The notes under the pieces: model-generated | Database searches by the model: none | What the model saw: the letters and a program-made list of their open reading frames with translations, nothing else | What the model was told of the DNA's origin: nothing | Position numbers and translations under genes: made by a program | DNA from: a virus | Direction: 5' to 3' (one strand) | Virus record (IMG/VR): IMGVR_UViG_3300043409_000503 | Span: 1-54,928 of that record | Length of the DNA: 54,928 nt | Shown here: positions 28,932 to 47,900 of the stretch, in pieces | How the letters are laid out: every line of letters starts with the position of its first letter | Numbering within the stretch: the stretch's first letter is position 1

Positions 28932-29330
28932 ATGGCAAACCCGAACATTGTAAATGTAACAAGCATTCTTGGTACAACTACTTACCTCACGCCTTCCGCT
29001 ACTACTGCTGTTGTCTTGCTGCCTAACGCTGCGGCTTCTGGTCTGGTCTATAAGATCAACCAGATCGTATGCGCTAACGTGAACGGGGCAAGCGCGGTAA
29101 ATGCGACTGTGGCTATTTACACTAACGGCGCTGTGGCTCAAGGCTCGGCACCTAGCGGTGGCACTGCTTACCCGGTGATCTCTACGATCTCAGTGCCTGC
29201 TAGTGCATCTGTGATTGCGGTGGATAAGACGACTGCTATCTATTTGATGGAGGGATCCTCTATTACAGTAACAAGTGGCACGGCAAGCGGGATTACGTAC
29301 ACCATTAGCTACGAATCCATCGCAAGTTAA
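28932..29330 (+). CDS. Beta-rich virion protein, 132 aa
   Basis: MANPNIVNVTSILGTTTYLT, AVVLLPNAAASGLVYKINQI and SSITVTSGTASGITYTISYE indicate a single beta-sandwich as in fibre heads or head decorations. The last 13 nt of the gene, CATCGCAAGTTAA, also appear at the end of the relic at 35672-35713, which links this gene to the duplication events downstream. Confidence 0.7.
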   Translation: MANPNIVNVTSILGTTTYLTPSATTAVVLLPNAAASGLVYKINQIVCANVNGASAVNATVAIYTNGAVAQGSAPSGGTAYPVISTISVPASASVIAVDKTTAIYLMEGSSITVTSGTASGITYTISYESIAS

Positions 29331-29341
29331 GGGGTAGCCCC

Positions 29342-30481
29342 ATGAGCATTAGACAGTACAACTTAGGCAGCATTGTCAAGCCGGGGTTTAATCCGCTCGG
29401 GGTGCAGACGAGTGTAACTACTTACCAGCCATATTTATATAGTTGGGGCGTAAATACTTACGGGCAATTAGGTTTAAGTAATACAACAACTTATTCTTCG
29501 CCTAAGCAAGTAGGTTCTTTAACGGATTGGTTAAGTATTTCTTCTGGATCATATAATGTTGCCGCAATAAAATCTGACGGAACTTTGTGGTCTTGGGGGC
29601 GCAACAATCAGGGGCAATTAGGTTTAGAGGATACGGTTAGTAGATCATCTCCAGTACAAGTTGGTTCTTTAACTGGTTGGAGTAGCGTTGCAGGTGAAGT
29701 TACAAGCATTCTTGCCATTAAAACAAATGGCACTTTATGGGCGTGGGGTAATAGCGGAGATGGGCAATTAGGTCTTGGAAATACAGCTTCTTATTCATCA
29801 CCTAAACAAGTTGGCGCTCTTACTAATTGGAAACAAGTTTCTATAGGTACATCAACTCTAGCAATTAAAACAGATGGAACTTTGTGGTCTTGGGGTGGTA
29901 ATGGTCAAGGGCAGTTAGGACTTAATAGTGTAAATTTTTATTCTTCCCCTAAACAAGTTGGGTCACTGACTAATTGGGCTTATGTAAATATTAAAAATGA
30001 AAGTTCTCTCGCTATTAAGACTGATGGCACTTTATGGGCATGGGGATATAACATACAAGGAGTACTAGGGCTTGGTGACACTGTTAATCGTTCATCACCA
30101 GTTCAAATTGGCGCTCTTACTAATTGGTCAAAAGTTTATGGAATAAGAATTTTTTCATCTATTGCTGTTAAAACAGACGGCACATTGTGGACTTGGGGGT
30201 TTAATAATCAAGGGCAATTAGGGTTAGGGAATACGACTGCTTATTCCTCTCCCAAACAAGTTGGTTCTCTAACTAACTGGTTACTGCCTGCTGGTGGCGG
30301 CAGAACTGGGTTTTGCATTAAAACAAATGGCACTTTATGGGCGTGGGGACAAAATAATCTTGGTCAATTGGGATTGAACAGCAGCACTTATTATTTTTCC
30401 TCCCCTAACCAAGTTGGGTCATTAACAACATGGCTACAAGTTTCTGCTGGCTATCAATTTACTAGCGCCCTTCTTTATTAA
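29342..30481 (+). CDS. RCC1-repeat seven-bladed beta-propeller protein A1, 379 aa
   Basis: After the leader MSIRQYNLGSIVKPGFNPLG come seven repeats of about 48-52 residues. Each follows the pattern 'LWsWG.N..GQLGLG......SPkQVG.LT.W......g....AIKtdGT' (tryptophan-glycine marks begin LYSWG, LWSWG, LWAWG, LWSWG, LWAWG, LWTWG, LWAWG). Seven RCC1 repeats make one closed propeller. The short leader is shared with A2 (33405-34526) and probably attaches the protein to the virion. More A+T-rich than neighbouring genes, a sign of transfer. Receptor binding is inferred. Confidence 0.88.
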   Translation: MSIRQYNLGSIVKPGFNPLGVQTSVTTYQPYLYSWGVNTYGQLGLSNTTTYSSPKQVGSLTDWLSISSGSYNVAAIKSDGTLWSWGRNNQGQLGLEDTVSRSSPVQVGSLTGWSSVAGEVTSILAIKTNGTLWAWGNSGDGQLGLGNTASYSSPKQVGALTNWKQVSIGTSTLAIKTDGTLWSWGGNGQGQLGLNSVNFYSSPKQVGSLTNWAYVNIKNESSLAIKTDGTLWAWGYNIQGVLGLGDTVNRSSPVQIGALTNWSKVYGIRIFSSIAVKTDGTLWTWGFNNQGQLGLGNTTAYSSPKQVGSLTNWLLPAGGGRTGFCIKTNGTLWAWGQNNLGQLGLNSSTYYFSSPNQVGSLTTWLQVSAGYQFTSALLY

Positions 30482-30490
30482 AATAAAACT

Positions 30491-31642
30491 ATGCCATCAA
30501 CTACATTAGTATCAGGCGTCCAATACTCCGGCGTATGGACAATGCAACAGGTGAATGCCGCTGTAGCTGCGGGGACTTGGACGGGGTTCCCTCAGTTGTA
30601 TACTTGGGGAGGTAACGGCCAAGGTCAATTAGCTCTTGGAAATACTACAAATTATTCTTCACCTAAGCAAGTAGGCTCTTTGACTAATTGGGCTAAAGTA
30701 GGTGCGGCAAGGGGCGCAGCTTTTTCAATCAAAACTGATGGCACATTGTGGGCTTGGGGACAAAATGCTTTTGGGGTTTTAGGAATTGGCAATTCAACAT
30801 ATTATTCTTCGCCTAAACAAGTTGGGGCTTTAACCACTTGGTCAAATATAGGGAATGGAAGTTATCACACAATAGTAACAACAATAAGTGGGGAACTATG
30901 GGTTTGGGGCCGGAACAATGCTGGTCAACTAGGACTAGGCAACACAACAAATTATTCTTCACCTAAACAAGTAGGATCTTTAACTACTTGGTTAAATTCG
31001 TCTGGAGGGGCTGCGCATACTGTTGCTATTAAAACAGACGGCACTTTATGGTCTTGGGGACAAAATGCGTATGGACAATTAGGTTTAGGAAATATAACTT
31101 ATTATTCTTCCCCAAAGCAAGTTGGCTCTTTAACTACTTGGTTAAAAACTGCATGTGGTTTTTATTATACCGTTGCCCTTAAAACTGATGGGACATTGTG
31201 GGCTTGGGGGAATAATTCATATGGTCAACTTGGGCTAACAAATCTTACAGATTATTCTTCGCCTAAACAAGTTGGGTTATTAACAACGTGGGCTAATATA
31301 TCAATTAAAAGTTATACTACTATTGCAACCACAACAAGTGGCGCTCTTTATGCTTGGGGTAGAAATAACGCCGGTCAATTGGGTTTAGGCAATATAACTT
31401 ATTATTCTTCGCCTAAACAAGTAGGGGCTTTAACAAACTGGGCAAGCATTGCCGCCGCCAATTCAAATACTGTTTCTATTAAAACTGACGGCACTTTATG
31501 GGCTTGGGGACTTAACAATAATGGGCAATTAGGATTAAACAACACAACTGATTATTCTTCCCCGAAACAAGTTGGTTCTTTATCATCTTGGTCAAAAATA
31601 GCATGTGGTGATACTTCTAATAATACAATTAAAATATCATGA
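30491..31642 (+). CDS. RCC1-repeat seven-bladed beta-propeller protein B1, 383 aa
   Basis: Leader MPSTTLVSGVQYSGVWTMQQ then GTWTGFPQLYTWGG, followed by seven RCC1-type repeats (LYTWG, LWAWG, LWVWG, LWSWG, LWAWG, LYAWG, LWAWG) with highly similar 'YYSSPKQVGSLT.W' connectors. Its leader differs from A1 but matches B2 (34530-35675). Its stop overlaps the sulfotransferase start (ATGA), so expression of propeller and enzyme is coupled. Likely a virion adhesin; also a conceivable substrate of the enzyme encoded next to it. Confidence 0.88.
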   Translation: MPSTTLVSGVQYSGVWTMQQVNAAVAAGTWTGFPQLYTWGGNGQGQLALGNTTNYSSPKQVGSLTNWAKVGAARGAAFSIKTDGTLWAWGQNAFGVLGIGNSTYYSSPKQVGALTTWSNIGNGSYHTIVTTISGELWVWGRNNAGQLGLGNTTNYSSPKQVGSLTTWLNSSGGAAHTVAIKTDGTLWSWGQNAYGQLGLGNITYYSSPKQVGSLTTWLKTACGFYYTVALKTDGTLWAWGNNSYGQLGLTNLTDYSSPKQVGLLTTWANISIKSYTTIATTTSGALYAWGRNNAGQLGLGNITYYSSPKQVGALTNWASIAAANSNTVSIKTDGTLWAWGLNNNGQLGLNNTTDYSSPKQVGSLSSWSKIACGDTSNNTIKIS

Positions 31643-33408
31643 AAAAAACACTCCATTTCCTCTCCGGCATTCCACGCTCAGGCTCAACCGTCTTGGCGGC
31701 TATTCTTAACCAGAACCCAATGACCCACGTATCTACTACGTCTGGTCTGGTTCATGCGTTGGATGGTCTGGCTAATACGTGGCATTCTGCCGGTCTGTTG
31801 AACGAGAATGACCCTGAGCGCAAGCTGTTAGCGCAGACTATGCGTGGTGCCATTGACGCCTTCTACGAGGACACAGAGGCCCCTGTCATCATTGATAAGT
31901 CCCGTGGCTGGCCTATCGCTCAGATCATGGCGGCTATGGGTCAGGTACTGAACCGCACCCCTAAGATTATTGCTACGGTCAGATCTGTCCCTGACTGCGC
32001 TGCTTCATTTATTCGTATCGCAAAGCCGGACGATCTTGACGAGTTTATGGCGACAGGCCAGCTAATGGATCATCTACGGGCTGCGTATATCTCTCTCCAG
32101 AACGGCTACGAGTTTGCGCCTGAGAATTTCCTGTTCGTTGAGTACGAAGACCTGCTGTCTGATCCAAAGGGTCAGCTAGAGCGCATCCATGCCTTCCTAG
32201 AGCTTCCTGCGTTTACCTACGACTTCAATAACATCGACGGCTCTACGGTTGCCGAGGATGACGAGAACCTGCACGGCACGAAGGGTATGCACGACGTTAA
32301 ACCTGTACTGGCTGCGCAGCATAAGCAAGACCCGAAAGACCTGCTGAAGCATCACTATTCGCAGTTCTGCCAGCCTGAGTTCTGGCTAGATAAGCCACGC
32401 ACAGCGCCTGAGTTGCACGACCTTGATCTACAGCTTGCCGCGTCAACGATTGGTGACTTCTCTGAGGGTTGGAGAATCTCGCAAAAGTTGGAAGCGGAAG
32501 AGCCGGGTAACCACCGTGCTGCCTACAATCGTGGCTGGTACTACTTGCGTCAGGGTCAGATCCAAAAGGGTTATAGCCTGATGGACAGGGGCCGTATCGT
32601 AGGCGTGTTCGGTAACAAGCGCCCTGACGTACCTACCCAGCAGTGGGATGGTAAGACTAAGGGTACGGTTCTGCTAAACCTTGAGGGTGGATTGGGCGAC
32701 CAGATACATCAAGTTCGTTACGCTAAGTACATCGCGGAGCGTGGTTGCAAGGTTATTGTGGCCTGCTCTGGTCAGCTTGCGTCCTTGTTTACTGGCGTAG
32801 AGGGCGTCTCTAGCGTCGTGCAGCATGAGGCTGTGTTCGGGGTCTATCACGACTTCTGGGTAGCTGGTATGTCTGCTCTGGTGCCGCTAGGGTTTGAGTT
32901 GAGTGATATTTCTGGTGCGCCTTACCTTGCCAAGCCGGTAGTGATCAAAGGCCGCAAGAAGCGCATTGGCTTGCGGTGGCAGGGTCAGTCTAAGTTTGAG
33001 CATGAGCATCACAAGAAATTCCCGTATGAGTTGATGTTTAGCGCGGTGAAGGATGCGGATGTAGAGTTTATTAGCCTGCAACGGGACGAGGGTGCTGATG
33101 CCTGTCCTGCGTGGGTGCGTCAGGTTCCATTGAATAGCTGGGAAGATACACGGGCTGCTGTGGCAAGCTGTGACCTTGTGATTAGCTCATGTACGAGTGT
33201 GAGTCACTTGGCTGCTGCGATGGGTGTAGAGACATGGGTAGTTATTCCGGTTATGGGATACTTCTTGTATGCGATGGACGGCGACAAGTGTGCGTACTAC
33301 GACAGCATGACGTTAGTTCGGCAAGAAGTGTTTGGTGACTGGCAGGCTCCCTTCGACCATATCAAAGATCGTTTAGGCACTAAGCCTGCTCTAAGGAGCG
33401 TTGCATGA
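31639..33408 (+). CDS. Sulfotransferase-TPR-glycosyltransferase fusion, 589 aa
   Basis: Residues 1-250 are a PAPS-dependent sulfotransferase: the phosphate-binding loop LSGIPRSGSTVLAAILNQNP at 8-27, the 3'-phosphate motif TVRSVPDCAASFIRIAK near 115-130, and a typical FVEYEDLLSDPKGQLERI at 165-185. Residues about 285-325 form a TPR-like unit (NHRAAYNRGWYYLRQGQIQK). Residues 340-550 resemble GT-B glycosyltransferases of the heptosyltransferase/TPR-linked kind: VLLNLEGGLGDQIHQVRYAK, RIGLRWQGQSKFEHEHHKKF, and CDLVISSCTSVSHLAAAMGV, the nucleotide-sugar site. Coupled to propeller genes on both sides (ATGA). Targets unknown. Confidence 0.85.
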   Translation: MKKTLHFLSGIPRSGSTVLAAILNQNPMTHVSTTSGLVHALDGLANTWHSAGLLNENDPERKLLAQTMRGAIDAFYEDTEAPVIIDKSRGWPIAQIMAAMGQVLNRTPKIIATVRSVPDCAASFIRIAKPDDLDEFMATGQLMDHLRAAYISLQNGYEFAPENFLFVEYEDLLSDPKGQLERIHAFLELPAFTYDFNNIDGSTVAEDDENLHGTKGMHDVKPVLAAQHKQDPKDLLKHHYSQFCQPEFWLDKPRTAPELHDLDLQLAASTIGDFSEGWRISQKLEAEEPGNHRAAYNRGWYYLRQGQIQKGYSLMDRGRIVGVFGNKRPDVPTQQWDGKTKGTVLLNLEGGLGDQIHQVRYAKYIAERGCKVIVACSGQLASLFTGVEGVSSVVQHEAVFGVYHDFWVAGMSALVPLGFELSDISGAPYLAKPVVIKGRKKRIGLRWQGQSKFEHEHHKKFPYELMFSAVKDADVEFISLQRDEGADACPAWVRQVPLNSWEDTRAAVASCDLVISSCTSVSHLAAAMGVETWVVIPVMGYFLYAMDGDKCAYYDSMTLVRQEVFGDWQAPFDHIKDRLGTKPALRSVA

Positions 33409-34526
33409 GCTTTAGATACGTATCAGGGATAAATAAGCCGGGGTTTAATCCTCTTGCGGCTCAGACGAGTACGCTTTTATATAACTTATATAGTTGGGGC
33501 GATAATACGCAAGGTCAGTTAGGCTTAGGAAATACAACTGCTTATTCCTCCCCTAAACAAGTAGGATTGTTAACTGCTTGGTCAAAAATATCATCTGGAA
33601 ATAATTACTCTATTTCAATTAAAACAGATGGATCTTTATGGTCTTGGGGAAGAAACGACCAAGGACAATTAGGTTTAGGAAACACAACATATTATTCCTT
33701 ACCAAAACAAGTTGGATCTTTATTAACATGGGCTAATATCCAAACCGGCACTTTCCATACCATAGCTACCAAAACTGATGGAACATTGTGGACTTGGGGA
33801 AATGGCGCTAATGGTAAGTTGGGTTTAGGTAATCTCACTTCTTATTCCTCTCCTAAGCAAGTTGGCGCACTAACTAATTGGTCTAAGGGGTTTGGTGGCA
33901 GAAATTTTACTGTTGCAATTAAAACAGATGGAACATTATGGTCTTGGGGGCAAAATGCTTTTGGAAATCTTGGTTTAGGAAACACAACATATTATTCTTC
34001 TCCAAAGCAAATTGGAGCATTAACTAATTGGCTTAATGTTGCTTGTGGATATGGTCATGTTGCTGCCACTAAAACTGATGGCACTCTTTGGACTTGGGGG
34101 TTTAATCCAAGGGGTCAGTTGGGTCTTGGAAATACAACTTATTACTCGTCTCCAAAACAGGTTGGCGCATTAACTACTTGGTTACGTGTTGCCGCTGGTT
34201 ATCCTTACACCATGGCTACCAAAACTGGCGGTACGTTATGGAGTTGGGGTCGCAATCAATTTGGTCAATTAGGCCTTAGTAATACAACTAGTTATTACTC
34301 TCCAAAACAGGTTGGTGCATTGACCACTTGGCTTGATGTATCTGTTAAAACTAATAGTACTATAGCGACTAAAACAGACGGGACTTTGTGGTCATGGGGT
34401 AGGAATGAGACGGGGCAATTAGGTTTAAATAATTTAACTTACTATTCCTCACCAAAACAAATTGGCTCGTCAACTACATGGTTAAGTATAGCAATTGGTG
34501 ACTTTACTACTTTAGCCATAGGATAA
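33405..34526 (+). CDS. RCC1-repeat seven-bladed beta-propeller protein A2, 373 aa
   Basis: Leader MSFRYVSGINKPGFNPLAAQ, clearly the A1 leader (KPGFNPL..QTS), then seven RCC1-type repeats (LYSWG, LWSWG, LWTWG, LWSWG, LWTWG, LWSWG, LWSWG). Overlaps the stop of the fusion enzyme by 4 nt. Blade sequences differ from A1 at loop positions while the core is constant, consistent with diversification of a binding surface after duplication. Confidence 0.88.
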   Translation: MSFRYVSGINKPGFNPLAAQTSTLLYNLYSWGDNTQGQLGLGNTTAYSSPKQVGLLTAWSKISSGNNYSISIKTDGSLWSWGRNDQGQLGLGNTTYYSLPKQVGSLLTWANIQTGTFHTIATKTDGTLWTWGNGANGKLGLGNLTSYSSPKQVGALTNWSKGFGGRNFTVAIKTDGTLWSWGQNAFGNLGLGNTTYYSSPKQIGALTNWLNVACGYGHVAATKTDGTLWTWGFNPRGQLGLGNTTYYSSPKQVGALTTWLRVAAGYPYTMATKTGGTLWSWGRNQFGQLGLSNTTSYYSPKQVGALTTWLDVSVKTNSTIATKTDGTLWSWGRNETGQLGLNNLTYYSSPKQIGSSTTWLSIAIGDFTTLAIG

Positions 34527-34529
34527 AAC

Positions 34530-35675
34530 ATGGCACAAACAATCGTATCAGGCGTTCAATACTCAGGCATCTGGAGCCTCGCGGGTCAAGCGAACGCTGT
34601 GGCGTTGGGGACGTGGACGGGGTTCCCTCAGTTATACACTTGGGGCGCGGGTGGTTTTGGCGCTTTAGGCCTTGGGAATTTAACTAACTATTCGTCTCCT
34701 AAACAAGTTGGGTTACTAACTAATTGGAAAAGTCTATCTGGTGGAAGATTGCAAGCAATTGCAACTAAAACTGACGGGACTCTTTGGGCTTGGGGATTTA
34801 ACGCTACAGGTCAATTAGGCTTAGGCGATACAACAACTAGATCATCCCCTGCCCAAGTTGGGTTACTAACTAATTGGTTAAATATTGCTGGTGGCTTTTA
34901 TAACACAGCCGCAACAACAACTAATGGCACTTTATATGCTTGGGGTGATAACACAAGAGGTCAATTGGGATTAGGCAACATAACTTCTTATTCATCCCCT
35001 AAACAAGTTGGAGCTTTAACTAATTGGCTTGAAATATCTGGTGGGTATAAAATTTTTGTTGCCATTAAAACTAATGGAACTTTGTGGAGTTGGGGGGCTA
35101 ATGCTTACGGACAACTAGGCTTAGGTGATGTAATTGACAGATCATCTCCAGTCCAAGTAGGTGCTTTGACTAATTGGTTAAAAGTTTCAGCAAAATATTT
35201 TTCTTGCGTAGCAATTAAAACAGACGGAACTCTTTGGTCATGGGGAATAAACACTGCTGGAGTATTGGGGTTAGGGGATACTACAAATAGATCATCTCCA
35301 GTACAAGTTGGCGCATTAACTACTTGGTCTAGCATATCAAGCAGTGGATTTTGCTCTGCAATTAAAACTGACGGAACATTATGGGTTTGGGGGAGTAATG
35401 GTTCTGGGCAATTAGGTTTAGGCGACACAACTGCTCGTTCATCTCCTGTTCAAGTTGGGTCGTTAACAAATTGGTCAAAAACATTTAATGCTTTAGAAAG
35501 TATTACATCTATTAAAACTGATGGAACTTTATGGGGATGGGGGCTAAACAATGTTGGCCAACTTGGTTTAGGAAGTGTAACTAATTATTCTTCACCTAAA
35601 CAAGTTGGTAATTTAACTTCATGGCTAAACATTGCTAACACTTATAACACTGGCATGGCTATAAAAACATCATGA
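34530..35675 (+). CDS. RCC1-repeat seven-bladed beta-propeller protein B2, 381 aa
   Basis: Leader MAQTIVSGVQYSGIWSLAGQ then GTWTGFPQLYTWGA, the B1 leader type, followed by seven repeats (LYTWG, LWAWG, LYAWG, LWSWG, LWSWG, LWVWG, LWGWG). Several blades use the 'TRSSPVQVG' connector variant, also found in A1, showing blade shuffling between copies. It ends with ATGA into a relic of the sulfotransferase start (35672-35713), the same junction as B1 with the intact enzyme. Confidence 0.88.
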   Translation: MAQTIVSGVQYSGIWSLAGQANAVALGTWTGFPQLYTWGAGGFGALGLGNLTNYSSPKQVGLLTNWKSLSGGRLQAIATKTDGTLWAWGFNATGQLGLGDTTTRSSPAQVGLLTNWLNIAGGFYNTAATTTNGTLYAWGDNTRGQLGLGNITSYSSPKQVGALTNWLEISGGYKIFVAIKTNGTLWSWGANAYGQLGLGDVIDRSSPVQVGALTNWLKVSAKYFSCVAIKTDGTLWSWGINTAGVLGLGDTTNRSSPVQVGALTTWSSISSSGFCSAIKTDGTLWVWGSNGSGQLGLGDTTARSSPVQVGSLTNWSKTFNALESITSIKTDGTLWGWGLNNVGQLGLGSVTNYSSPKQVGNLTSWLNIANTYNTGMAIKTS

Positions 35676-35741: not shown

Positions 35742-36134
35742 ATGACACATTACGTTCAAGTAGTCGGAAACGAAGTTAAGCAGGTCTGGGACACCCCTCC
35801 CGCAGAAGGCGTAGGCAACAACGGCTGGAAGAATGCTGTTGAGGTGCGTCCTGCTATTACTGCTCACCGTCAAGGCTACACAGCCCACCGGTTTGATCTG
35901 GCGACGGATCCAGTCCAAATTATCTGGGACACCTACAACATCCCAGTTGCAGACCGCAAGGCAGGCATGATTGCTAACGCGAACATGGGCTTCCAGATGG
36001 AGATGCAACGTCAGGCGATGAACCCAGCTAATTATGACCCAGCAGCACTGGCCGCAGCACAGGCAGCTATTGCCCCAAAGGTTGCCGCTATTAACGCTGC
36101 AACAACGCATGACGATCTAGACGCACTGCTGTGA
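35742..36134 (+). CDS. Tail-associated hypothetical protein, 130 aa
   Basis: MTHYVQVVGNEVKQVWDTPP then NAVEVRPAITAHRQGYTAHR and PVQIIWDTYNIPVADRKAGM. The end ATTHDDLDALL and the helical Ala-rich middle resemble tail-fibre assembly or fibre-associated proteins in which an N-terminal 'v..g.v..vwd' strand pair precedes helices. RBS AAGGAG. The stop overlaps the GTG of the APS kinase gene. Confidence 0.65.
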   Translation: MTHYVQVVGNEVKQVWDTPPAEGVGNNGWKNAVEVRPAITAHRQGYTAHRFDLATDPVQIIWDTYNIPVADRKAGMIANANMGFQMEMQRQAMNPANYDPAALAAAQAAIAPKVAAINAATTHDDLDALL

Positions 36135-36562
36135 AGGTTCTGATCTGCGGACTGCCGGGGTCTGGTAAGACTACCCTAGCAGAAGCGTTAGCAAGGGAGC
36201 TTCAGTGCGTCCACTTTAACGCTGACGAGGTTCGTAAGGAGATCAACAAGGATCTCGGCTTCAGCGTTGAGGATAGGATTGAGCAGGCTAGGCGCATGGG
36301 GATACTGTGCGACATAGCAAGTCGGTGGGGGTCGGTGGTACTTGCAGACTTTGTATGTCCTACGCCGGAGACAAGGGAAGCCTTTGGTGCCGACTTCACG
36401 ATCTGGGTAGACCGGATCAAAGAGGGCAGGTTTGAGGATACGAACAAGCTGTTTGTTCCGCCGGAGCATTACGATGTGCGGATTACGGGTAAGTTTGATT
36501 CCTGTTTCCCTAGCCACCACGCAGACGACTTAGCGGCACGGATTAAGAAGATGCTGAAGTGA
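36131..36562 (+). CDS. cysC: APS kinase-like protein (CysC-type), 143 aa
   Basis: Predicted to phosphorylate adenylylsulfate to PAPS, the sulfate donor for the sulfotransferase at 31639. Walker A VLICGLPGSGKTTLAEAL at residues 3-20. FNADEVRKEINKDLGFSVED then RIEQARRMG matches CysC 'DGDnvR...dLGFs..DR.eniRR.g', the APS-binding signature. LADFVCPTPETREAF matches 'aFIsP...R'. Shorter at the C-terminus than E. coli CysC (201 aa). GTG start overlapping the previous stop. Other small P-loop kinases are possible, but the LGFS..DR block favours APS kinase. Confidence 0.78.
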   Translation: MKVLICGLPGSGKTTLAEALARELQCVHFNADEVRKEINKDLGFSVEDRIEQARRMGILCDIASRWGSVVLADFVCPTPETREAFGADFTIWVDRIKEGRFEDTNKLFVPPEHYDVRITGKFDSCFPSHHADDLAARIKKMLK

Positions 36563-36951
36563 TTGTCTTTACTAACGGCTGCTTTGATGTGCTTCACAGA
36601 GGCCACGTAGAGTACCTAGAGGCGTCCAAAAGGCTTGGGACAAGGTTAGTTATAGGTTTAAACTCAGACGCGTCTGTGAGGCGTTTAAAGCCCGATAGGC
36701 CGATTAACAGCCAAGGGGATCGGCAGGCGGTATTGCTGGCCTTGCGTTGCGTGGATGAGGTACTGATTTTTGATGAGGACACGCCCTACCAGCTAATCCA
36801 AAGGGTTAGGCCGGACATTCTCACAAAGGGCGGGGATTACAGAATTCATCAGGTTGTAGGACATGACTTGGTAAAGCAGACGATTATTGTGCCGTTTTTG
36901 GACGGGCATTCTTCTACTAGGATTATCAATGCGCTTGCACGGAACGGTTGA
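36559..36951 (+). CDS. hldC: HldC-like nucleotidyltransferase (heptose-1-phosphate adenylyltransferase), 130 aa
   Basis: Predicted to convert heptose-1-phosphate and ATP to ADP-heptose. FTNGCFDVLHRGHVEYLEAS holds the HxGH catalytic motif. GLNSDASVRRLKPDRPINSQ and LTKGGDY match the HldE C-terminal domain in order, and length fits a stand-alone HldC. GTG start overlapping the kinase stop (GTGA). A related glycerol-phosphate or ethanolamine-phosphate cytidylyltransferase is the main alternative, but adjoining heptose genes support HldC. Confidence 0.85.
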   Translation: MIVFTNGCFDVLHRGHVEYLEASKRLGTRLVIGLNSDASVRRLKPDRPINSQGDRQAVLLALRCVDEVLIFDEDTPYQLIQRVRPDILTKGGDYRIHQVVGHDLVKQTIIVPFLDGHSSTRIINALARNG

Positions 36952-37282
36952 GAAGGGCTGGGGGTCAGAGCTAATCTGGGCTACTAACGACAAGTATTGC
37001 GGCAAGCTGATGACGTTTAATGAAGGTGCTAAGTTCTCGATGCATTTTCATGCGGTAAAAGAAGAGACTTGGTTGGTGCAGAGCGGTGTCTTTAAGGTTA
37101 TTACAATTGACACAACAGATGCTTCCCGCGAAGAGGTTATTTTGGCTGCTGGGGATACATGGCATAACCCGCCCTTGGTGCCGCATCAATTGATCTGCAT
37201 TGGTGCTGGGGTAATCCTAGAGGTATCAACGGCTGATTCAGTAGAAGATAACTACCGAGTAGAGAAGGGCGATAGCCAATGA
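36929..37282 (+). CDS. Cupin (sugar-phosphate isomerase-type), 117 aa
   Basis: ATG 36929 is chosen; an upstream in-frame ATG lies deep inside the HldC gene. The barrel opens VEKGWGSELIWATNDKYCGK. Metal ligands are HFHAVKEETW (HxH and Glu), and the second cupin box is PPLVPHQLICI. The 'VeKpWGse.iWa.t..Y.gK.l' start is typical of mannose-6-phosphate-isomerase-like cupins linked to nucleotide-sugar genes. It may help supply or isomerise the sugar phosphate. The substrate cannot be assigned. Confidence 0.8.
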   Translation: MRLHGTVEKGWGSELIWATNDKYCGKLMTFNEGAKFSMHFHAVKEETWLVQSGVFKVITIDTTDASREEVILAAGDTWHNPPLVPHQLICIGAGVILEVSTADSVEDNYRVEKGDSQ

Positions 37283-37986
37283 ATATTCTAGTAATCGGCG
37301 ACGCCTGCATTGACGAGTACCGCTACGGGGTAATTACACGGATGAACCCTGAGTCTGCTGCCCCGTTGATGAGTTATGACGACAGCGAGGAACGGCTTGG
37401 GATGGCGCTTAATGTTGCCCAGAACCTAAAGTCCTTGGGTGCAGATGTGACGTTATCGACTAGCGAGGATATGTCCCGCAAGATCAGATACATTAACCGC
37501 AGGACTGGTGAGCAGTTACTGCGGGTAGATATAGACGTAGAGGCAGTCCCTTACGAGTTTTCCTATGATTACGACGAGTACGATGCGATTGTGATCTCTG
37601 ACTATAACAAGGGGTTTGTCACTGACGAGACGGTTAAGGTCTTGCGTAAGGAGTTTTCTGGCCCGATCTACATGGATACCAAGAAGACTAACCTAGGGGA
37701 CTTCCCCGGCATTTATTTCAAGATTAATGAGCGTGAAGAGCTTGCCTGCACCTCAACAACTGAAACCGTCATTGTGACGTATGGCGCACTTGGCTGTAGC
37801 TACATGGGGCATCTTTACCCTGCTAAGGCGGTTGATGTGGTGGACGTATGCGGCGCTGGTGATGTATTCCTAGCGGCTATGGTTGTGAAGCACCTAGAGA
37901 CTGACGACATGGACGTAGCGCTTAACTTTGCTAACGAGAAGGCCGCTTTATCCTGCCAGAGCTTAGGGACGGTATGCGTATCCTAA
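37279..37986 (+). CDS. hldA: HldA-like heptose-7-phosphate kinase (PfkB family), compact, 235 aa
   Basis: ILVIGDACIDEYRYGVITRM then NPESAAPL match the HldE N-terminal kinase start. ERLGMALNVAQNLKSLGADV is the substrate/lid region, IVISDYNKGF is 'lSDY.KG', and VVDVCGAGDVFLAAMVV is the GAGD anion hole with catalytic Asp (Cys replaces the usual Thr). About 80 residues shorter than cellular HldA, missing central segments, so either a compact active form or a degraded one. ATGA overlap with the cupin and a 13-nt overlap with HldD. Confidence 0.82.
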   Translation: MNILVIGDACIDEYRYGVITRMNPESAAPLMSYDDSEERLGMALNVAQNLKSLGADVTLSTSEDMSRKIRYINRRTGEQLLRVDIDVEAVPYEFSYDYDEYDAIVISDYNKGFVTDETVKVLRKEFSGPIYMDTKKTNLGDFPGIYFKINEREELACTSTTETVIVTYGALGCSYMGHLYPAKAVDVVDVCGAGDVFLAAMVVKHLETDDMDVALNFANEKAALSCQSLGTVCVS

Positions 37987-38750
37987 TCACAGGACATAAG
38001 GGCTTTATTGGCCAGAACATGGTTAAGGCACTGTCTGACCATGAGCTAAGCCTGTGTGAATGGGGGGATAATTATTCCCTTTATGGGATAGATCAAGTTA
38101 TTCATTTGGGTGCGATCTCAGACACGCAGTGTACTGATTGGGATGCGCTAAGAAGGCAGAATGTTGAGTTTTCGCTAACCTTGATTGAGCGGTGCCAGCA
38201 AAAGCGGATACCTATCCAGGTTGCGTCCTCTGCGGCTGTTTACGGGGCAAGCAATACGACCTTCTGTGAGACGGATAAAACCGCACCAGGTAACATGTAC
38301 GCGCTATCTAAGGAGATGGTTGAGCAATATCTGGGTAAGATTGCCCCAGTAGCGCCGGTACAGATTTTTAGGTACTTTAACGTGTACGGCCCTCACGAGG
38401 ATCATAAGGGTGAGCAGGCGTCACCGTTCCATAAGTTTAGGGAGCAGGCTAAGACTGGAACGATTAAGATATTTGAGGGCAGTGAGAACTTTAAGCGGGA
38501 CTTTATTCATGTTGGACGCGTGATTGAAGTCCATAAGAAGTTCTTTGAAATTGACAAGTCAGGCATTTGGAACGTTGGCACTGGCAGAACGATGTCGTTT
38601 TTAGATGTTGCTAAATTAGCCCGCGCAGAGTTTGGTGCGGAGATAGAAACGGTTCCAATGCCAGACCTGCCGGGTTATCAAAAGTTTACTCAAGCTAATG
38701 TATTAAAACTTAACGAAGACGCCATATATGGATCCCCAATTTTTAATTAA
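37974..38750 (+). CDS. hldD: HldD-like ADP-heptose 6-epimerase (extended SDR), 258 aa
   Basis: Predicted to turn ADP-D-glycero-heptose into the L-glycero form used in LPS core. N-terminal ILITGHKGFIGQNMVKAL is the NAD(P) Rossmann motif. VASSAAVYG and YALSKEMVEQY give the Ser/Tyr-x3-Lys triad. FRYFNVYGPHEDHKGEQASP, FHKF, FEGSENFKRDFIHV and WNVGTGRTMSFLDVA are the close signature of HldD. About 50 residues shorter than E. coli HldD (310 aa), mainly in the early part of the Rossmann domain. Confidence 0.87.
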   Translation: MRILITGHKGFIGQNMVKALSDHELSLCEWGDNYSLYGIDQVIHLGAISDTQCTDWDALRRQNVEFSLTLIERCQQKRIPIQVASSAAVYGASNTTFCETDKTAPGNMYALSKEMVEQYLGKIAPVAPVQIFRYFNVYGPHEDHKGEQASPFHKFREQAKTGTIKIFEGSENFKRDFIHVGRVIEVHKKFFEIDKSGIWNVGTGRTMSFLDVAKLARAEFGAEIETVPMPDLPGYQKFTQANVLKLNEDAIYGSPIFN

Positions 38751-40548: not shown

Positions 40549-41184
40549 ATGACAGCCGCCGTTGTGATGACCTATGACAGCCTAGTGGCTGACGTGATCT
40601 CCTACCTGGAGCGGACTGATACCGCCACGGTAGATAAGATTCCTACTTTTATTATGTTAGCTGAGCAGGTAATTGCCAGCCAGATCAAGTTTCTAGGCAA
40701 CCTGACGGTCCAGGAAAGCCAGATGGTTGCTACGCAGTCGGTGATTGATAAGCCTGCTCGGTGGCACAAGACGGTCTCCATGAACGTCACCGTGGCCAAC
40801 AACCGGTACCCGGTCCTGTTGCGCAAGCCTGAGTACCTGCGGGAGTACTGGCCAAATCCTAGCGAGACGGAAGTCCCAAAGTTTTACTCTGACTACGATT
40901 ACACTCATTGGTTAGTGGCGCCGACGCCTGACCTTGACTATAACTTCGAGGTTATCTACTACGAGCGGGTTCAGCCTTTGAGCTCAAGTAACCAGGTTAA
41001 TTGGTTTACAACCTATGCTCCGCAGGCTTTGCTGTATGGAACGTTACTGCAGTCGATGCCGTTCTTGAAGAACGATGACCGGATGCCTATGTGGCAGGCT
41101 CAGTACGACCTTATTATCAACACTCTGAAGGCCGAGGATGCGATGCGCATAGCCGACCGTCAGGCCGTCGCATTGGACTCCTAA
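40549..41184 (+). CDS. Head-tail adaptor protein, 211 aa
   Basis: YDSLVADVISYLERTDTATV then FIMLAEQVIASQIKFLGNLT; a beta part (RWHKTVSMNVTVANNRYPVL, YNFEVIYYERVQPLS). The end NWFTTYAPQALLYGTLLQSM then MWQAQYDLIINTLKAED matches the podovirus adaptor family, in which the final helices ('ap..LlygaL.ea.p....d.r...w...f...') contact the portal. The better candidate for the main gp4-like adaptor of the two in this genome. RBS AAGGAAAG. Confidence 0.78.
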   Translation: MTAAVVMTYDSLVADVISYLERTDTATVDKIPTFIMLAEQVIASQIKFLGNLTVQESQMVATQSVIDKPARWHKTVSMNVTVANNRYPVLLRKPEYLREYWPNPSETEVPKFYSDYDYTHWLVAPTPDLDYNFEVIYYERVQPLSSSNQVNWFTTYAPQALLYGTLLQSMPFLKNDDRMPMWQAQYDLIINTLKAEDAMRIADRQAVALDS

Positions 41185-41186
41185 CT

Positions 41187-42407
41187 ATGTCATATAACAG
41201 CCCCTTCACAGGAAACGTAGTCCAGCCCACGGACGTTTCTTACCGCGAGATCAACTTAACTGCAGATTTGCAGCTTGAGTGGCCAATTAACGGGACTACG
41301 ACTGGCGATGCTGCTGCGCGAATTATGGACGTTTTGCCGGACCAGGCGGGCTGGAAGTTGTTCATGCCCCCGGCGAATCAGACATCGGTAGGTAACGATG
41401 CAATGATCCGCAACATTGGCGCCTTCACATTTACGGTTGTGGATTTTGATGGAAACACAATTATTGCGGTAGACGCCGGTGAGGCAAAGTACATCTACAT
41501 TACTGATAATGCTGACGAGGCAGGCACCTGGGGCGTCTTAGAGTTTGGAGCCGGGACATCCTCTGCAGACTCGGCAACTTTGGCTGGGTATGGCTTAAAG
41601 GCAATCTCAACAACGCTAAACCAGTCCCATAACACGACCGCATTTTCCTCGAACTACACTGCTGTAGCGTCAGACCGTGCATCTTGCTACGTCTGGACTG
41701 GTGGCGCCGGCGTCTTAACCTTGCCTACTGCCGCCTCGCTTGGGAATGATTGGTTTATCCTGGTCCGTAATGGCGGCACGGGGTCTTTGTCTATTACCCC
41801 TACTACATCAAATATTAACGATGTGGCGTCGATTAGCTTACAGCCGGCTGATTCTTGCTTTGTGTGCTGCTCTGGAACCGCGTACTTTACGGTCGGCTTA
41901 GGTAAAGTCTCGCAGTTTAATTTCACGCAACTAACAAAGTTAGTGACAAGCGGCACCTATACCTTAACCTCCGCAGAGGCCGCTAACGTTGTCCAGAAGT
42001 ACATTGGCACGTTAACTGGGGCGGTGACTGTTGAAGTCCCGCAGACGGTGCAGGTTTACTACATTGCGAATCAGACGACCGATCCTGGGCCTTATAACAT
42101 TACCTTTACCACCGGCGTGCCTGGTGCGAATACGGCCATAGTGCCTGCCGGTAACCAAGTTATCCTGCTATGCGACTCCGTCAACATTTACAACGCGACT
42201 ACAATCAGCGCAGGTGCTAGTGTCTCCTCATTATCCGACGGCACGGTAGTTAACCCTTCGCTTAACTTTGCCTCTGAGGCAAATACCGGCATGTACCGGC
42301 CTGGCACTGGCGAGATTGGCTGGTCTATTCTTGGGGTGAATGAGATGACCTTAGCGGCTTCAGGCTTAACCGTTCCTAGCGGTATCTCCGGCGGTATCTT
42401 CACATGA
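41187..42407 (+). CDS. Tail fibre/stem protein, 406 aa
   Basis: ATG 41187, two nt after the previous stop; the longer frame upstream is rejected. N-terminal SPFTGNVVQPTDVSYREINL and LQLEWPINGTTTGDAAARIM are typical of the tail-nozzle-bound fibre base in podoviruses. Repeated beta modules follow (ASCYVWTGGAGVLTLPTAAS, TYTLTSAEAANVVQKYIGTL), then LNFASEANTGMYRPGTGEIG. The end is VPSGISGGIFT. Probably a tail stem or proximal fibre. Confidence 0.78.
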   Translation: MSYNSPFTGNVVQPTDVSYREINLTADLQLEWPINGTTTGDAAARIMDVLPDQAGWKLFMPPANQTSVGNDAMIRNIGAFTFTVVDFDGNTIIAVDAGEAKYIYITDNADEAGTWGVLEFGAGTSSADSATLAGYGLKAISTTLNQSHNTTAFSSNYTAVASDRASCYVWTGGAGVLTLPTAASLGNDWFILVRNGGTGSLSITPTTSNINDVASISLQPADSCFVCCSGTAYFTVGLGKVSQFNFTQLTKLVTSGTYTLTSAEAANVVQKYIGTLTGAVTVEVPQTVQVYYIANQTTDPGPYNITFTTGVPGANTAIVPAGNQVILLCDSVNIYNATTISAGASVSSLSDGTVVNPSLNFASEANTGMYRPGTGEIGWSILGVNEMTLAASGLTVPSGISGGIFT

Positions 42408-44638
42408 CACAAAAAGTCTTTGCGCTTGATACTGTTGCCGGCATTCAGCGGGACGGTACGTTATTTGATAAGGCCTACTATACCGACGGCAAGTGGGTTA
42501 GGTTCCAACGTAAGCGCCCTCGTAAGATGGGCGGGTATCGGGTTATCTCTAACCAGCTAACGGGACCGTCTAGGGGTATTTGGGTTAACCCAAGGAACGG
42601 CCTTACCTATATTTTTAGTGGATACAGTGACGGCCTGCAGACGCTAACAATTGACAGCAACGGTGTCGGCTCTGGCATTCAAGATTTTACGTTGAATAAC
42701 TTTACGCCATCAAATCTTAACCTTTGGCAATTTGACGGGTTCTATGATGTGTCAGGTTCTGGGCTATCAACAATTGTGGCTCATCCAGGTCAAAACTTGG
42801 CTGTAATTGATAACACTACGAACACGCCTGTTTTGATTGGCGATGTTATGGGCACGACCTTGTCCCAAATCGGAATTTTTACAGACAGCGTGACAACAAC
42901 AAATGGCCTGCCTACGGTTACCTTGGCAGCCATTAATACCTTAATTGGTGCCGGGCAGTCTGTGACAGGTGCTGGAATTCCTAGTGGGACGACGGTCTTG
43001 TCTGTTGTTAGCACGACGGTTACCTTGTCTGCTAACGCTACGGCAAGTGCGACGGTGACGGCTACCTTTAATAATAATGTCAGTGTTTCCGGTGGCGTTG
43101 TTGTCTTGCATCCTTACGTCTTTGTTTACGGTAACGACGGCGTAATTAGAAACTGCTCGGCTGGTAACGCGCAAGATTGGGTCTCGGCCGACGCTAACGA
43201 GGTCAACGTGGCCACTGGCAAGATTGTGCAGGGCTTAACGGTGCGTGGTGGCTCTAATAGCCCGTCAGGCCTGTTCTGGAGCTTAGACAGCCTTATACGC
43301 GTCTCTTATGCCCCTCAGTCGTTAGGCGTCGCTGGTACGCCAAACTTCTCCGCCCCGACCTTCTGGCGCTACGACATTATCTCTAGTCAAACTTCTATTA
43401 TGTCGTCGCAGTGCGTCATTGAATATGACGGCATCTATTACTGGATCGGCGTTGATCGATTCCTTCTGTACAACGGTACAGTGAAGGAAATTGAAAATAA
43501 CATGAACCAGAACTACTTTTTCGATAACCTGAACTATGACGCTAGAGAAAAAGTCTGGGTAACAAAAGTACCTCGATATGGTGAGATTTGGTGGTACTAC
43601 CCTCGTGGGGATTCCACTGAATGCAACGACGCCATTGTCTACAACGTTCGTGAACAAACCTGGTACGACGCTGGTGGAGCAATTGGAGCTCGACGCTCTG
43701 CTGGGTACTTCTCACAGGTGTTTGCTTTCCCTGTGGCCGCTGATTGGGTAACAACGGTATCGGAATCTGTTTTTGAAGCAAGTTTTGCCACTGTTAACGG
43801 CTCCCCTTACCTTAAAACGGCGACGTACTACCCAGACGCTATCGTAGGTCAGATTATTAACGGGACGGGGATTACTGTTGGCACCGAGGTGCAGACGGTC
43901 ACAACTAGCGGCATTAACGGTCTTGGGGCTATTACGGCCGGATCTGGGTATGTAAACGGTTCGTACCTAAATATTCCATTTATAACCGGCAGCGGCTTTA
44001 ACGGGACTGCTAATATTACTGTTGCCGGCAATGTTGTGACCGCTGTCGCAATCGTAAACCCTGGCGCTGTCTATGAGGTTGGTGACGTGCTTGAGGTTGA
44101 CGATGCTGACTTAGGTGGTGGCTCTGGATTCTCGATACCCATTACCTCTATTTGGACGATGGTTATCACGATGACGGCTAACGCTACGGCGACCGGTACA
44201 GAGCTGTTGACGTTTAGTACTCAGCCAGACCTGATTGAAATATTTCAGAACGAGTACGGTACTGACTATGTAAATGGCCAGAACGCGGTTGCTATTGAGA
44301 GCTACTTTGAGACCAACGACCTTGGTTGGGTTAGCGGCGGTCCTGCTGAGATGTCCCCGGCTGGAACTAACCGGTGGCTGCGCTTAGAGCGCGTTGAGCC
44401 TGACTTCATCATGACAGGTGAGATGAACCTTGTTGTAACCGGGCGTCCATTTGCACAGGGTGATGACCAGGAGTCTGCCCCGTATGTGTTTGACGCTAAC
44501 ATTGGCAAGATTGACATGAAAGAGCAGCGCCGGGAGTTACGCCTGCGGTTCATTTCAAACATTGTTGGTGGTAACTATCAATTAGGTAAGTTGCTGTTGA
44601 ATGCGGACCTTGGCGACGTTCGAGGTTTCGGATCATGA
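42404..44638 (+). CDS. Tail hub/stabilisation protein, P22 gp10-like, 744 aa
   Basis: Residues 1-60 (DTVAGIQRDGTLFDKAYYTD, GKWVRFQRKRPRKMGGYRV) and later blocks (VFVYGNDGVIRNCSAGNAQD, VIEYDGIYYWIGVDRFLLYN, AIVYNVREQTWYD) fit the beta-propeller hub of P22 gp10 (472 aa), which plugs the tail. Two inserted Thr-rich Ig-like segments (about residues 155-230 and 465-600) explain the extra length. The end GKIDMKEQRRELRLRFISNI then GGNYQLGKLLLNADLGD is conserved in this protein group. ATGA overlap at its start. Confidence 0.8.
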   Translation: MTQKVFALDTVAGIQRDGTLFDKAYYTDGKWVRFQRKRPRKMGGYRVISNQLTGPSRGIWVNPRNGLTYIFSGYSDGLQTLTIDSNGVGSGIQDFTLNNFTPSNLNLWQFDGFYDVSGSGLSTIVAHPGQNLAVIDNTTNTPVLIGDVMGTTLSQIGIFTDSVTTTNGLPTVTLAAINTLIGAGQSVTGAGIPSGTTVLSVVSTTVTLSANATASATVTATFNNNVSVSGGVVVLHPYVFVYGNDGVIRNCSAGNAQDWVSADANEVNVATGKIVQGLTVRGGSNSPSGLFWSLDSLIRVSYAPQSLGVAGTPNFSAPTFWRYDIISSQTSIMSSQCVIEYDGIYYWIGVDRFLLYNGTVKEIENNMNQNYFFDNLNYDAREKVWVTKVPRYGEIWWYYPRGDSTECNDAIVYNVREQTWYDAGGAIGARRSAGYFSQVFAFPVAADWVTTVSESVFEASFATVNGSPYLKTATYYPDAIVGQIINGTGITVGTEVQTVTTSGINGLGAITAGSGYVNGSYLNIPFITGSGFNGTANITVAGNVVTAVAIVNPGAVYEVGDVLEVDDADLGGGSGFSIPITSIWTMVITMTANATATGTELLTFSTQPDLIEIFQNEYGTDYVNGQNAVAIESYFETNDLGWVSGGPAEMSPAGTNRWLRLERVEPDFIMTGEMNLVVTGRPFAQGDDQESAPYVFDANIGKIDMKEQRRELRLRFISNIVGGNYQLGKLLLNADLGDVRGFGS

Positions 44639-44907: not shown

Positions 44908-47900
44908 ATGGCTCTTACTTATGGCGAAAAACAGGCTCAGTTAACGAGCGAACTAGGACGCCCTCCAACTGCAAAAGAGATGAGCGCGGCAATTTCTCCA
45001 GCAAAGACGGTAGCAACTACTACCGGTGGTTTGCCTGCAGTTGAGGTTGGCGTGCAGCTTCCTAAAGATCTTATGGGCGGGGTAGGTGCTGCTACGGTAA
45101 GCGGGGTAACCGCGGCTCCTGCGGCAGGTGGCTTAACTGTGGCACCTACAACGTCTTTCGTTGGCCCTGCTGCCCCTGCTGGCTTAGATAAACCTGCGCC
45201 TACCATTGCCCCGTTAACGTACTCCCCGACGCCAATTACAGCAGCCCAGCAGCAGACTGTTACGGCCGCTGAGACTGCCGGCCCTGCTGCGCCTACTGGG
45301 TTAGGTCAGCCATCGCCAATAGTAAGCCCTATATCGATTTCTCCGACCCCAACCGGCGCCCCACTGGCTGCTGCTGATAAGTTAAGTACGCTATATGCCG
45401 ACGTTCTCGGTCGTGCAGACGCGAAATTAGCAGACCCAGAAGGTTTCCAATACTGGCTAAACACCATCGGCGCAGACAACGCGATTACGCCGGAAGAGGA
45501 AGAGATCTGGCGAAAGGCTGCTGAGCCTGAGTTAGAAAAGAAGACAATAGGTCAATACACCGGCACTGTTCCCGCTGAGGACGTTAAGAGCTACTTTGAT
45601 GCGAACCAAGAAAACCCAGGACTAGTTGCTGCATATGCAACAAGAAACAATATCCCACTAGAGCAGATGGCTGCGGCTACTGGCAAGACTGTGGACGAGT
45701 TGTCTAAGTTTTACGATACATTTTATACGCCTATTGATTACTCTAAAGTTGAGGATTACAGCAAAGACCCGACTACAGGTAAGACTCTGTTCGGCACCGG
45801 TGGGCAATTCGGTTATACGAAGGGCGTAGCAAACCTTGACGCTAACGCGGTAGATAAGTTTCTTGCTGAGCAAAGAGACAAGGCATCAATTCAGGTCATG
45901 GGCGGTACTACTACAAACCCTAATGTTATCTCTGGTGACCTTAAAGCCGCGGACAATAAGCTTGGGTGGTCACTTGACAGTTACTCAGGGAAGATTGCTC
46001 AGGGCCTTGATGCTTTAGGCGTTACCTATGACCAGCCTGGTCCGATGGGGTCAAAAGGCACTAAAGGCAATATTTGGGAGTTTGCTGAGAGGGCTGGCGT
46101 CAACAAAGACGACTTCTATAAAGAGACAACGACTCAATACGGCGCTAAGCAGAAGGTATTTGATGATGATGCCTTTAAGGCTGCCGTCAATGACAAATAC
46201 AAGGACTTCTATGCAGTTACCGGCTTAGTTGAGGGCGGTGAGCATAGCGCGTTTACTCCAGATTTAGTCTCACAGGCTAGATCTAAAGGCGCTAACCATG
46301 CCCAGGTACTTTATACAAAGGTCGGTGATAAGTTAGTTCCGATTAGTGATCCGCAGTTCTTTAAGGCTCAGCGTGAGGGGACCGGCTTTGCCGGGTTCGT
46401 TGCTGAGGTAGCCCCTTATGCGCTAATGATGTTCCCAGGCGTTGGGCAGGCAATTGGTTCAGCGGTTGGTTTAAGCGGGACTACTGCTGCGGTTGTTGGT
46501 AATGCTGCTCTGAGTGCTGGCCTTGCTGCGTTTACTGGCGGCGATGTCCTTAAATCTGCCCTTATAGGCGGTGCATTAGGCGGGCTTAGCTTTAACGCTA
46601 CGGATGTCGCAGGCAACATTATCGGCGGTGGTGATATTGGCTTAGGGTTTGACCGGATGAACGCATTAGCGTCACAGACTGGCCTAAGCTTCAATCAAAT
46701 ATCAAGCGCGGTAACTGGGGCTACTGGTAACGCTCTATCGGCTGCAGTTATTGGCGGTAAAAATGCCGCTGAGTCGTTTGTTACCTATCTGACTGCGTCG
46801 TTAGGTAGCTCTGCTGCTGGGAACACTATTGGGAATTTTGTAAAAGATATTAATCCTGGGCAGTTTGACAAGGCGGCTAAGTACGCAAGCAATGCTGCCT
46901 CTGCTGCTACCTCTGCCGCTATATCTGGTGGGGACATTTCTGCTGCTGCCGGTAGCGCATTAGTTTCTACTGCAGGCAGTGACATTAAAAAAAGCATCAC
47001 TAAGGGTGGCATTAAGACTGCAGAGGCTGATATAGGGCAGACAGATGAAGAGCTTGCGGCAATTATTGAGAGTGGTGAGAAAAGCAAAGATTATGGCAAA
47101 CAGGTAGGGCAACAATTAGCCGCATATACACCAGCGGGTAAAGAAGGGTACGAATTTATTCCGGCTACGGCAGAAGAAACAGATGTTGCTGGAACCCTTG
47201 CCCCCGTAGAAGTTATCGACAAACGAACTGCTGCAACTCTTGAAGAAACAAAAAAAGATATTTTAGGTACGATAACCGGCGACCAAAACATAGAGCCTTC
47301 AAAGGACACTGGTACTCCTATTAAAACCGAAACAAAAACAGAAGATACTGCTGGTGGGTTTGACGTAAACAAAGATATTGCAAACGCTGTTCTCGCAACA
47401 AATACTAAGGCCTCCGCTGATACTGCCGCGGCTAAGGCTACCGCTGACGCTAAAGTTGCCGCCGATGCTAAGGCTGCTGCAGACGCTAAGGCCGCTAGTG
47501 ACGCCTCTAACGCTAAGGCTGCTGCTGATGCCAAGGCTGCTGCAACGGCTAAGGCTGACGCCGATAACAAGGCTGCTAAGGCTACTGCTGACGCTAAAGA
47601 TGCTGCTGTCGCTAAGTCTGTTGCTGACGCGAAGCTTGTTAAAGCTTCCGAGCTAAAGGTTGAAGGTAAAGAAACAACTACAGGTCCGCTAAAAAAAGAG
47701 GAGACGCTTCCCCCGGTTGAAGTTATCGGGAAAAAGGAAGAGGGCACTCTGCCCCCAGTTGAAGTTATTGGGGAAAAAGAAGATGGCCCGCTTCTGCCGG
47801 GTCAAGTTATTACAGAGAAAGAGGAAGAAACGCTTCCTCCTGTTGAAGTTATTGGGAAAAAAGAAGAAGAAACTTTGCCCCCGGTTGAGGTTATAGGAAA

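Follow-up and report, generated by a model that had tools for sequence, protein, structure and literature searches.

What do four RCC1-repeat proteins do in the tail-gene region of a phage, and what is an enzyme doing in their midst? The stretch of DNA that raises these questions (the window) is the 54,928-base record of an uncultured water phage, IMG/VR record IMGVR_UViG_3300043409_000503. An earlier, model-generated note on this DNA (the original prediction) reported four RCC1-repeat proteins at 29342-35675, with seven repeats each. Both the coordinates and the counts were right, according to the Pfam RCC1 model (PF00415) and a six-frame scan, but the note overlooked a fifth gene in the same stretch (31639-33408), which splits the four RCC1 genes into two pairs. 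The tightly linked modifying enzyme that it encodes is the most unusual feature of the locus. On balance, though only narrowly, we judge it probable that the RCC1 proteins are virion-surface propellers, most likely receptor-binding, that travel as a cassette with an enzyme that modifies them. The five genes are:

29342 to 30481, + strand: predicted RCC1 propeller 1, 379 amino acids; seven PF00415 matches (7.6e-70); leader 'KPGFNPL'
30491 to 31642, + strand: predicted RCC1 propeller 2, 383 amino acids; seven PF00415 matches (3.2e-77); leader 'VQYSGVW'
31639 to 33408, + strand: fused sulfotransferase-TPR-glycosyltransferase, between RCC1 genes 2 and 3
33405 to 34526, + strand: predicted RCC1 propeller 3, 373 amino acids; seven PF00415 matches (1.3e-81); leader 'KPGFNPL'; the gene whose product was modeled
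34530 to 35675, + strand: predicted RCC1 propeller 4, 381 amino acids; seven PF00415 matches (1.1e-67); leader 'VQYSGIW'

PF00415 matched seven stretches in each of the four open reading frames (ORFs; E values of 1e-67 to 1e-81), and the repeats are spaced 49-51 residues apart. All 28 repeats in the record score above the curated cut-off, and the six-frame scan found none outside the four ORFs and none in 14 control genomes. The short conserved leaders, which had also been noticed, come in two types that alternate along genes 1-4: '..KPGFNPL..' is common to genes 1 and 3, and '..SGVQYSG(V/I)W..GTWTGFPQL' is common to genes 2 and 4.

The original prediction held that seven blades close an RCC1 propeller, and structure prediction for gene 3, superposition on solved structures, and repeat counts in relatives all agree with this. 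The AlphaFold2 model is of the third RCC1 protein only, from an alignment with 57 relatives. It has a predicted local distance difference test score (pLDDT) of 93 and a predicted template modeling score (pTM) of 0.88, and it contains 28 strands, four per blade. The best superposition is with HERC2 RLD2 (Z score of 53.2, root-mean-square deviation of 1.5 over 349 of 373 residues); UVR8 (Z 50) and RCC1 (Z 48.7) also align over nearly the whole length, and BLIP-II aligns over 262 residues (Z 31). Among 155 complete and distinct relatives, the number of repeats is a multiple of seven in 139 (7 repeats in 119, 14 in 11, 21 in 8, and 28 in 1; these are profile counts, and a strict pattern undercounted). 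Multiples of seven would be surprising in an open solenoid, and the counts and the model support the view that the RCC1 proteins are closed seven-bladed propellers. (Some phage proteins with 14, 21, or 28 repeats, such as L015:9944-13165, apparently chain two to four propellers in one polypeptide, and L014:5594-6973, L013:2136-3533, and L023:1778-3202 have an apparent extra domain of about 80 residues between leader and propeller.)

If these proteins are binding proteins, which part of the propeller binds? We computed the variability of each repeat position over 355 distinct canonical RCC1 repeats. The most variable positions (39, 6, 40, 8, and 9, with 3.4-3.7 bits) lie in the loops that follow strands 1 and 3, while those that follow strands 2 and 4 (positions 26-31 and 47-50) are conserved, with a mean below 1 bit. 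Strand direction alternates within a blade, so the loops between strands 1-2 and 3-4 share one face of the propeller and the other two loops lie on the opposite face. Such a pattern would be expected of a binding face carried by a fixed scaffold, and the variable loops probably face the host. In the mechanism that we favor, a short leader would anchor each propeller on the virion, the variable face (formed by the strand 1-2 and strand 3-4 loops of each blade) would bind the host surface, and the opposite face and the strands would form the conserved scaffold.

The original prediction placed the RCC1 proteins among tail fibre genes. This agrees with the virion families that neighbors of the RCC1 block match:

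28428: baseplate wedge match (3e-7)
41091: tail fibre match (1e-5)
42404: virion structural match (5e-22)

Further downstream of the tail genes, a 1276-residue ORF (44908-48738) has no matches in PHROGs. As for the phage itself, the window's portal protein is 63% identical to that of a spring-water phage and 47% identical to those of the Caulobacter phages RW, KcrB, RLK, and GB2A.

The position among structural genes bears on another possible role, that the propellers are non-virion binders, released or retained inside the host, which, like the beta-lactamase inhibitor BLIP-II, might for example block a host enzyme or a defense protein. BLIP-II shares the fold and RCC1 domains are good binding scaffolds, but the leaders contain no evident secretion signal, and mass spectrometry has detected related RCC1 proteins in the virions of phages GAP32 (PMC5259590) and W70 (PMC11370258). 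We consider this role improbable.

The same slot is filled differently in other phages. We defined the slot as the region between the adaptor gene at 25101 and the genes at 40549-44638. In nine close relatives (adaptor 66-70% identical), the slot is complete on one contig and holds long fibre-like ORFs instead, one of which reaches 1725 residues; none of these nine slots contains an RCC1, sulfotransferase, or glycosyltransferase gene. (In another close relative, G001, with 97% identity in the adaptor, the slot is cut by contig ends, and it is outside the count of nine.) Conversely, in four distant phages (L180-L183), homologues of the adaptor and 42404 genes flank RCC1 genes and the fused enzyme. 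Their identity to the window is 44-78% for the enzyme, 50-66% for the best RCC1 matches, and 24-35% for the adaptor; in these distant carriers the block is mostly far more conserved than its surroundings. The RCC1 block is a swappable cassette.

Besides the propellers and the fused enzyme, the cassette includes two small proteins. We scored these, and the candidate donor genes described below, in 140 enzyme-bearing loci:

28932 to 29330, + strand: 132-amino-acid protein, in 107 of the 140 loci (median 77% identity)
35742 to 36134, + strand: 130-amino-acid module protein, function unassigned, in 113 of the 140 loci (median 68% identity)

The 28932 protein is 52-53% identical in two distant carriers, and in the distant carriers the 35742 protein follows either the enzyme or the last RCC1 gene. 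Phage DSL-LC04 has a homologue of the 28932 protein that is annotated as 'putative lectin' (51% identity, 9e-27). The same region of DSL-LC04 encodes a concanavalin-type lectin protein with a leader that shares 45% identity with the type-3 RCC1 leader, and this one example supports the idea that leader and propeller may be separable modules. In the loci that we fetched, leader types 2 and 3 were found on RCC1 genes only.

These observations also bear on the family's name. The annotation 'regulator of chromosome condensation' would make the propellers internal DNA-organising proteins; PHROGs puts these families under DNA metabolism, and the authors of a study of the jumbo phage phAPEC6, which has eleven RCC1 proteins, suggested such a role (PMC7247149). 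However, the annotation copies the name of eukaryotic RCC1. A block that lies in the tail-gene region, is missing in close relatives, and varies on one face is unlike a packaging protein, and a leader in common with a lectin-type protein suggests a place on the surface. We therefore regard a DNA-organising role as very improbable. We know of no Ran or chromatin in bacteria, and the RCC1 family name says nothing about function here. The proposal in the original prediction that these are phage adhesins has fared better: the tail-gene slot, the swapping of the cassette, the one-sided variability, and the DSL-LC04 leader all speak for it, if indirectly, and it is from them that we infer virion location and binding.

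What does the enzyme have to do with the propellers? In the window, the first four bases of its gene are the last four of RCC1 gene 2, and its last four are the first four of gene 3. We examined this linkage in loci that are related to one another and that were picked by their likeness to the window, so the numbers are counts and not independent trials. Starting from the enzyme in viral contigs, 108 of 110 distinct loci have an RCC1 gene on the same contig (within 200 bases in 104), and the two that do not both begin at a contig end. Where an RCC1 gene follows the fusion, the two usually overlap by four bases (56/62). Starting from RCC1 genes, a glycosyltransferase domain is present in 70 of 84 loci and a sulfotransferase in 58, fused or separate; the two are fused in some phages and are separate neighbors in others. 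At 50% identity, the glycosyltransferases of those 70 loci form 18 groups; of 49 tested, 30 touch an RCC1 gene. Neither enzyme was found in any of 93 loci from portal relatives, nine of which have a complete slot. In contigs of bacterial genomes, RCC1 genes accompany 15 of 19 enzyme relatives with at least 37% identity and none of 32 more distant ones.

Two bacterial loci are worth describing. A Bdellovibrionaceae contig (L341:3615-11145) encodes fibre-like proteins, the glycosyltransferase, and an RCC1 protein of 770 residues with many blades; the leader of this RCC1 protein contains a twin-arginine-like motif (SRRDFLK). The partnership may thus extend to a bacterium. Polynucleobacter nymphae encodes two distant glycosyltransferase relatives about 25 kb apart (L348 and L349), with no RCC1 genes nearby.

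The predicted structure of the fused enzyme (pLDDT 90) has three parts. Residues 1-258 match Sulfotransfer_3 (9.7e-17) and keep the loop that binds 3'-phosphoadenosine 5'-phosphosulfate (PAPS), 'PRSGSTVL', across relatives; this domain is nearest to protein-tyrosine sulfotransferases (TPST) in both sequence profile and fold (TPST1, Z 19.4 over 241 residues). TPR-like helices follow at about 257-324 (AspH TPR, Z 11.2). Residues 342-583 form a GT-B domain with the heptosyltransferase (GT9) fold, closest to WaaC (Z 16.2 over 229 residues) and TibC (Z 15.0), with WaaF also close. By sequence, neither Pfam nor NCBIfam matched this domain, and a profile search of Protein Data Bank sequences gave no heptosyltransferase and nothing relevant; its assignment rests on the predicted fold. 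An alignment of relatives has an invariant aspartate in a G-x-G-D motif, which may be the catalytic base, as in TibC. The four-cysteine iron finger of TibC is lacking, as there is a single invariant cysteine in an alignment of 20 relatives.

The simplest account of such tight linkage is that the propellers are the enzyme's substrate. The enzyme, made from reading frames that overlap those of the propellers, would dock on them, perhaps through its TPR helices, and would add sugar and/or sulfate before virion assembly. There are precedents for parts of this scheme. In FlmG of Caulobacter, a TPR region binds flagellin and a GT-B domain glycosylates it in the cytoplasm (PMC7591256); the likeness to the window enzyme is in the order of the domains, and FlmG has no sulfotransferase domain and uses pseudaminic acid. 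TibC heptosylates repeat adhesins (PMC4358343), and TibC/AAH enzymes have the same catalytic fold and act on repeat-protein adhesins, but the window enzyme has TPR and sulfotransferase domains instead of their beta-barrel, as well as no iron-finger cysteine set.

The main rival to the propellers as substrate is that the propellers are adhesins and that the enzyme puts sulfate and sugar on glycans of the host surface, either lipopolysaccharide or capsule, which would keep progeny from sticking to debris or rivals from adsorbing. The linkage would then arise because the enzyme alters the very receptor that the propellers bind. WaaC and WaaF, which share the GT9 fold, build lipopolysaccharide; Sulfotransfer_3 includes carbohydrate sulfotransferases, and NodProtNoeE matches weakly; this phage has ADP-heptose genes downstream; and a common proposal for phage glycosyltransferases is that they prevent superinfection (PMC10202952). 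On the other hand, the TPR segment is as in the protein-modifying FlmG, the enzyme gene usually touches or overlaps a propeller gene, the nine complete slots with other fibre proteins lack the enzyme, and the heptose donor genes are usually absent. These points are not conclusive, and we consider modification of host glycans rather unlikely.

Which groups might the enzyme add? Genes just downstream of the cassette could supply the donors in this phage:

36131 to 36562, + strand: APS (adenosine 5'-phosphosulfate)-kinase-like P-loop protein; APS_kinase 1.6e-16, apsK 4.3e-16 (below the curated cut-off); in 89 of the 140 loci
36559 to 36951, + strand: HldE domain II-like (heptose-1-phosphate adenylyltransferase); rfaE_dom_II 7.9e-51 (slightly below cut-off); in 29 of the 140 loci
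37279 to 37986, + strand: HldE domain I-like (heptose-7-phosphate kinase), shortened; rfaE_dom_I 7.2e-32 (below cut-off); in 26 of the 140 loci
37974 to 38750, + strand: HldD-like ADP-heptose epimerase, shortened; heptose_epim 7.6e-60 (below cut-off); in 26 of the 140 loci

Together with a cupin gene, these form a compact set (36131-38750) in which the kinase and the epimerase are shorter than the family models. The 36131 protein is a possible maker of the sulfate donor PAPS. The ADP-heptose genes adjoin the cassette here, but most enzyme-bearing loci lack them; the sugar may therefore be another one, and we keep heptose as a possibility only. As for the sulfate, propellers beside a sulfotransferase have 1.95 tyrosines per 50 residues versus 0.92 otherwise (p = 7e-6), which GC content does not explain.

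Several points weigh against our favored explanation. First, the linkage establishes a partnership, and it is from this partnership that we infer the propeller to be the substrate. Second, the re-use of a leader is known from one isolate, DSL-LC04, where a relative of type 3 recurs; among phage records, nothing relevant came up for leader types 1 and 2, so we dropped the idea that leaders are general virion anchors. Third, the ADP-heptose genes are present in only about a fifth of the enzyme-bearing loci. Fourth, the tyrosine enrichment is not significant once related enzymes are grouped (p = 0.16-0.55), and we no longer take composition as a sign of tyrosine sulfation; appealing as it is, the idea that tyrosines of the variable face are sulfated loses its support with this grouping. 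Finally, although TPST1/2 are the best profile and fold match of the N-terminal domain, the region of the catalytic glutamate differs: the 'EET' of TPST2, which we take to hold that glutamate, aligns with 'TTS' in the enzyme (the local alignment is weak). It is a tentative proposal, and on the doubtful side, that the phage glycosylates (possibly heptosylates) and sulfates its own receptor-binding propellers, with tyrosines of the variable face as possible sites; host recognition would then depend on virus-encoded chemistry as well as on sequence.

How much of this is new? The original prediction described RCC1 propellers as known mainly from eukaryotes and BLIP-II and their use by phages as unusual, which was too strong: PHROGs holds RCC1 families, relatives occur in at least 41 phage records (some with names such as 'tail protein'), and the GAP32 and W70 proteins are in virions. 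The four window proteins match phrog_4219 (1.7e-47 to 9e-51), and the phage RCC1 proteins of that kind (W70_237-239, GAP32 gp1, and the 121Q and phAPEC6 cluster) also consist of RCC1 repeats and measure about 40 kDa, with several tandem copies in some of these phages. Those of 121Q and its relatives, which are annotated as DNA condensation proteins, share only about 30% identity with the query and match it in part. HERC2, UVR8, and human RCC1 have the same seven-bladed propeller but are eukaryotic regulators, whereas the window propellers stand alone as short proteins, have phage leaders, and are unusually uniform in their repeats. The structural match is weaker for BLIP-II, a bacterial RCC1-type binding protein. 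In the searchable literature, which leaves subscription journals mostly outside, we found no report of a link between phage RCC1 proteins and glycosyl- or sulfotransferases, or of tyrosine sulfation of phage tails. Within that literature, a role of RCC1 proteins in virions is already known; what appears new is the reading of a variable-face adhesin, together with the cassette and the modifying enzyme.

The partnership between RCC1 proteins and the enzyme recurs in many viral contigs and in some contigs of bacterial genomes. Phage RCC1 proteins have long been annotated as 'chromosome condensation' or DNA proteins, and if our explanation is true, it would correct a misleading annotation and, for aquatic viruses, would reveal a class of phage binding proteins. 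It would also mean that phages themselves modify the proteins with which they bind, by sulfation and glycosylation; for a virus to finish its binding parts in this manner would be unusual.

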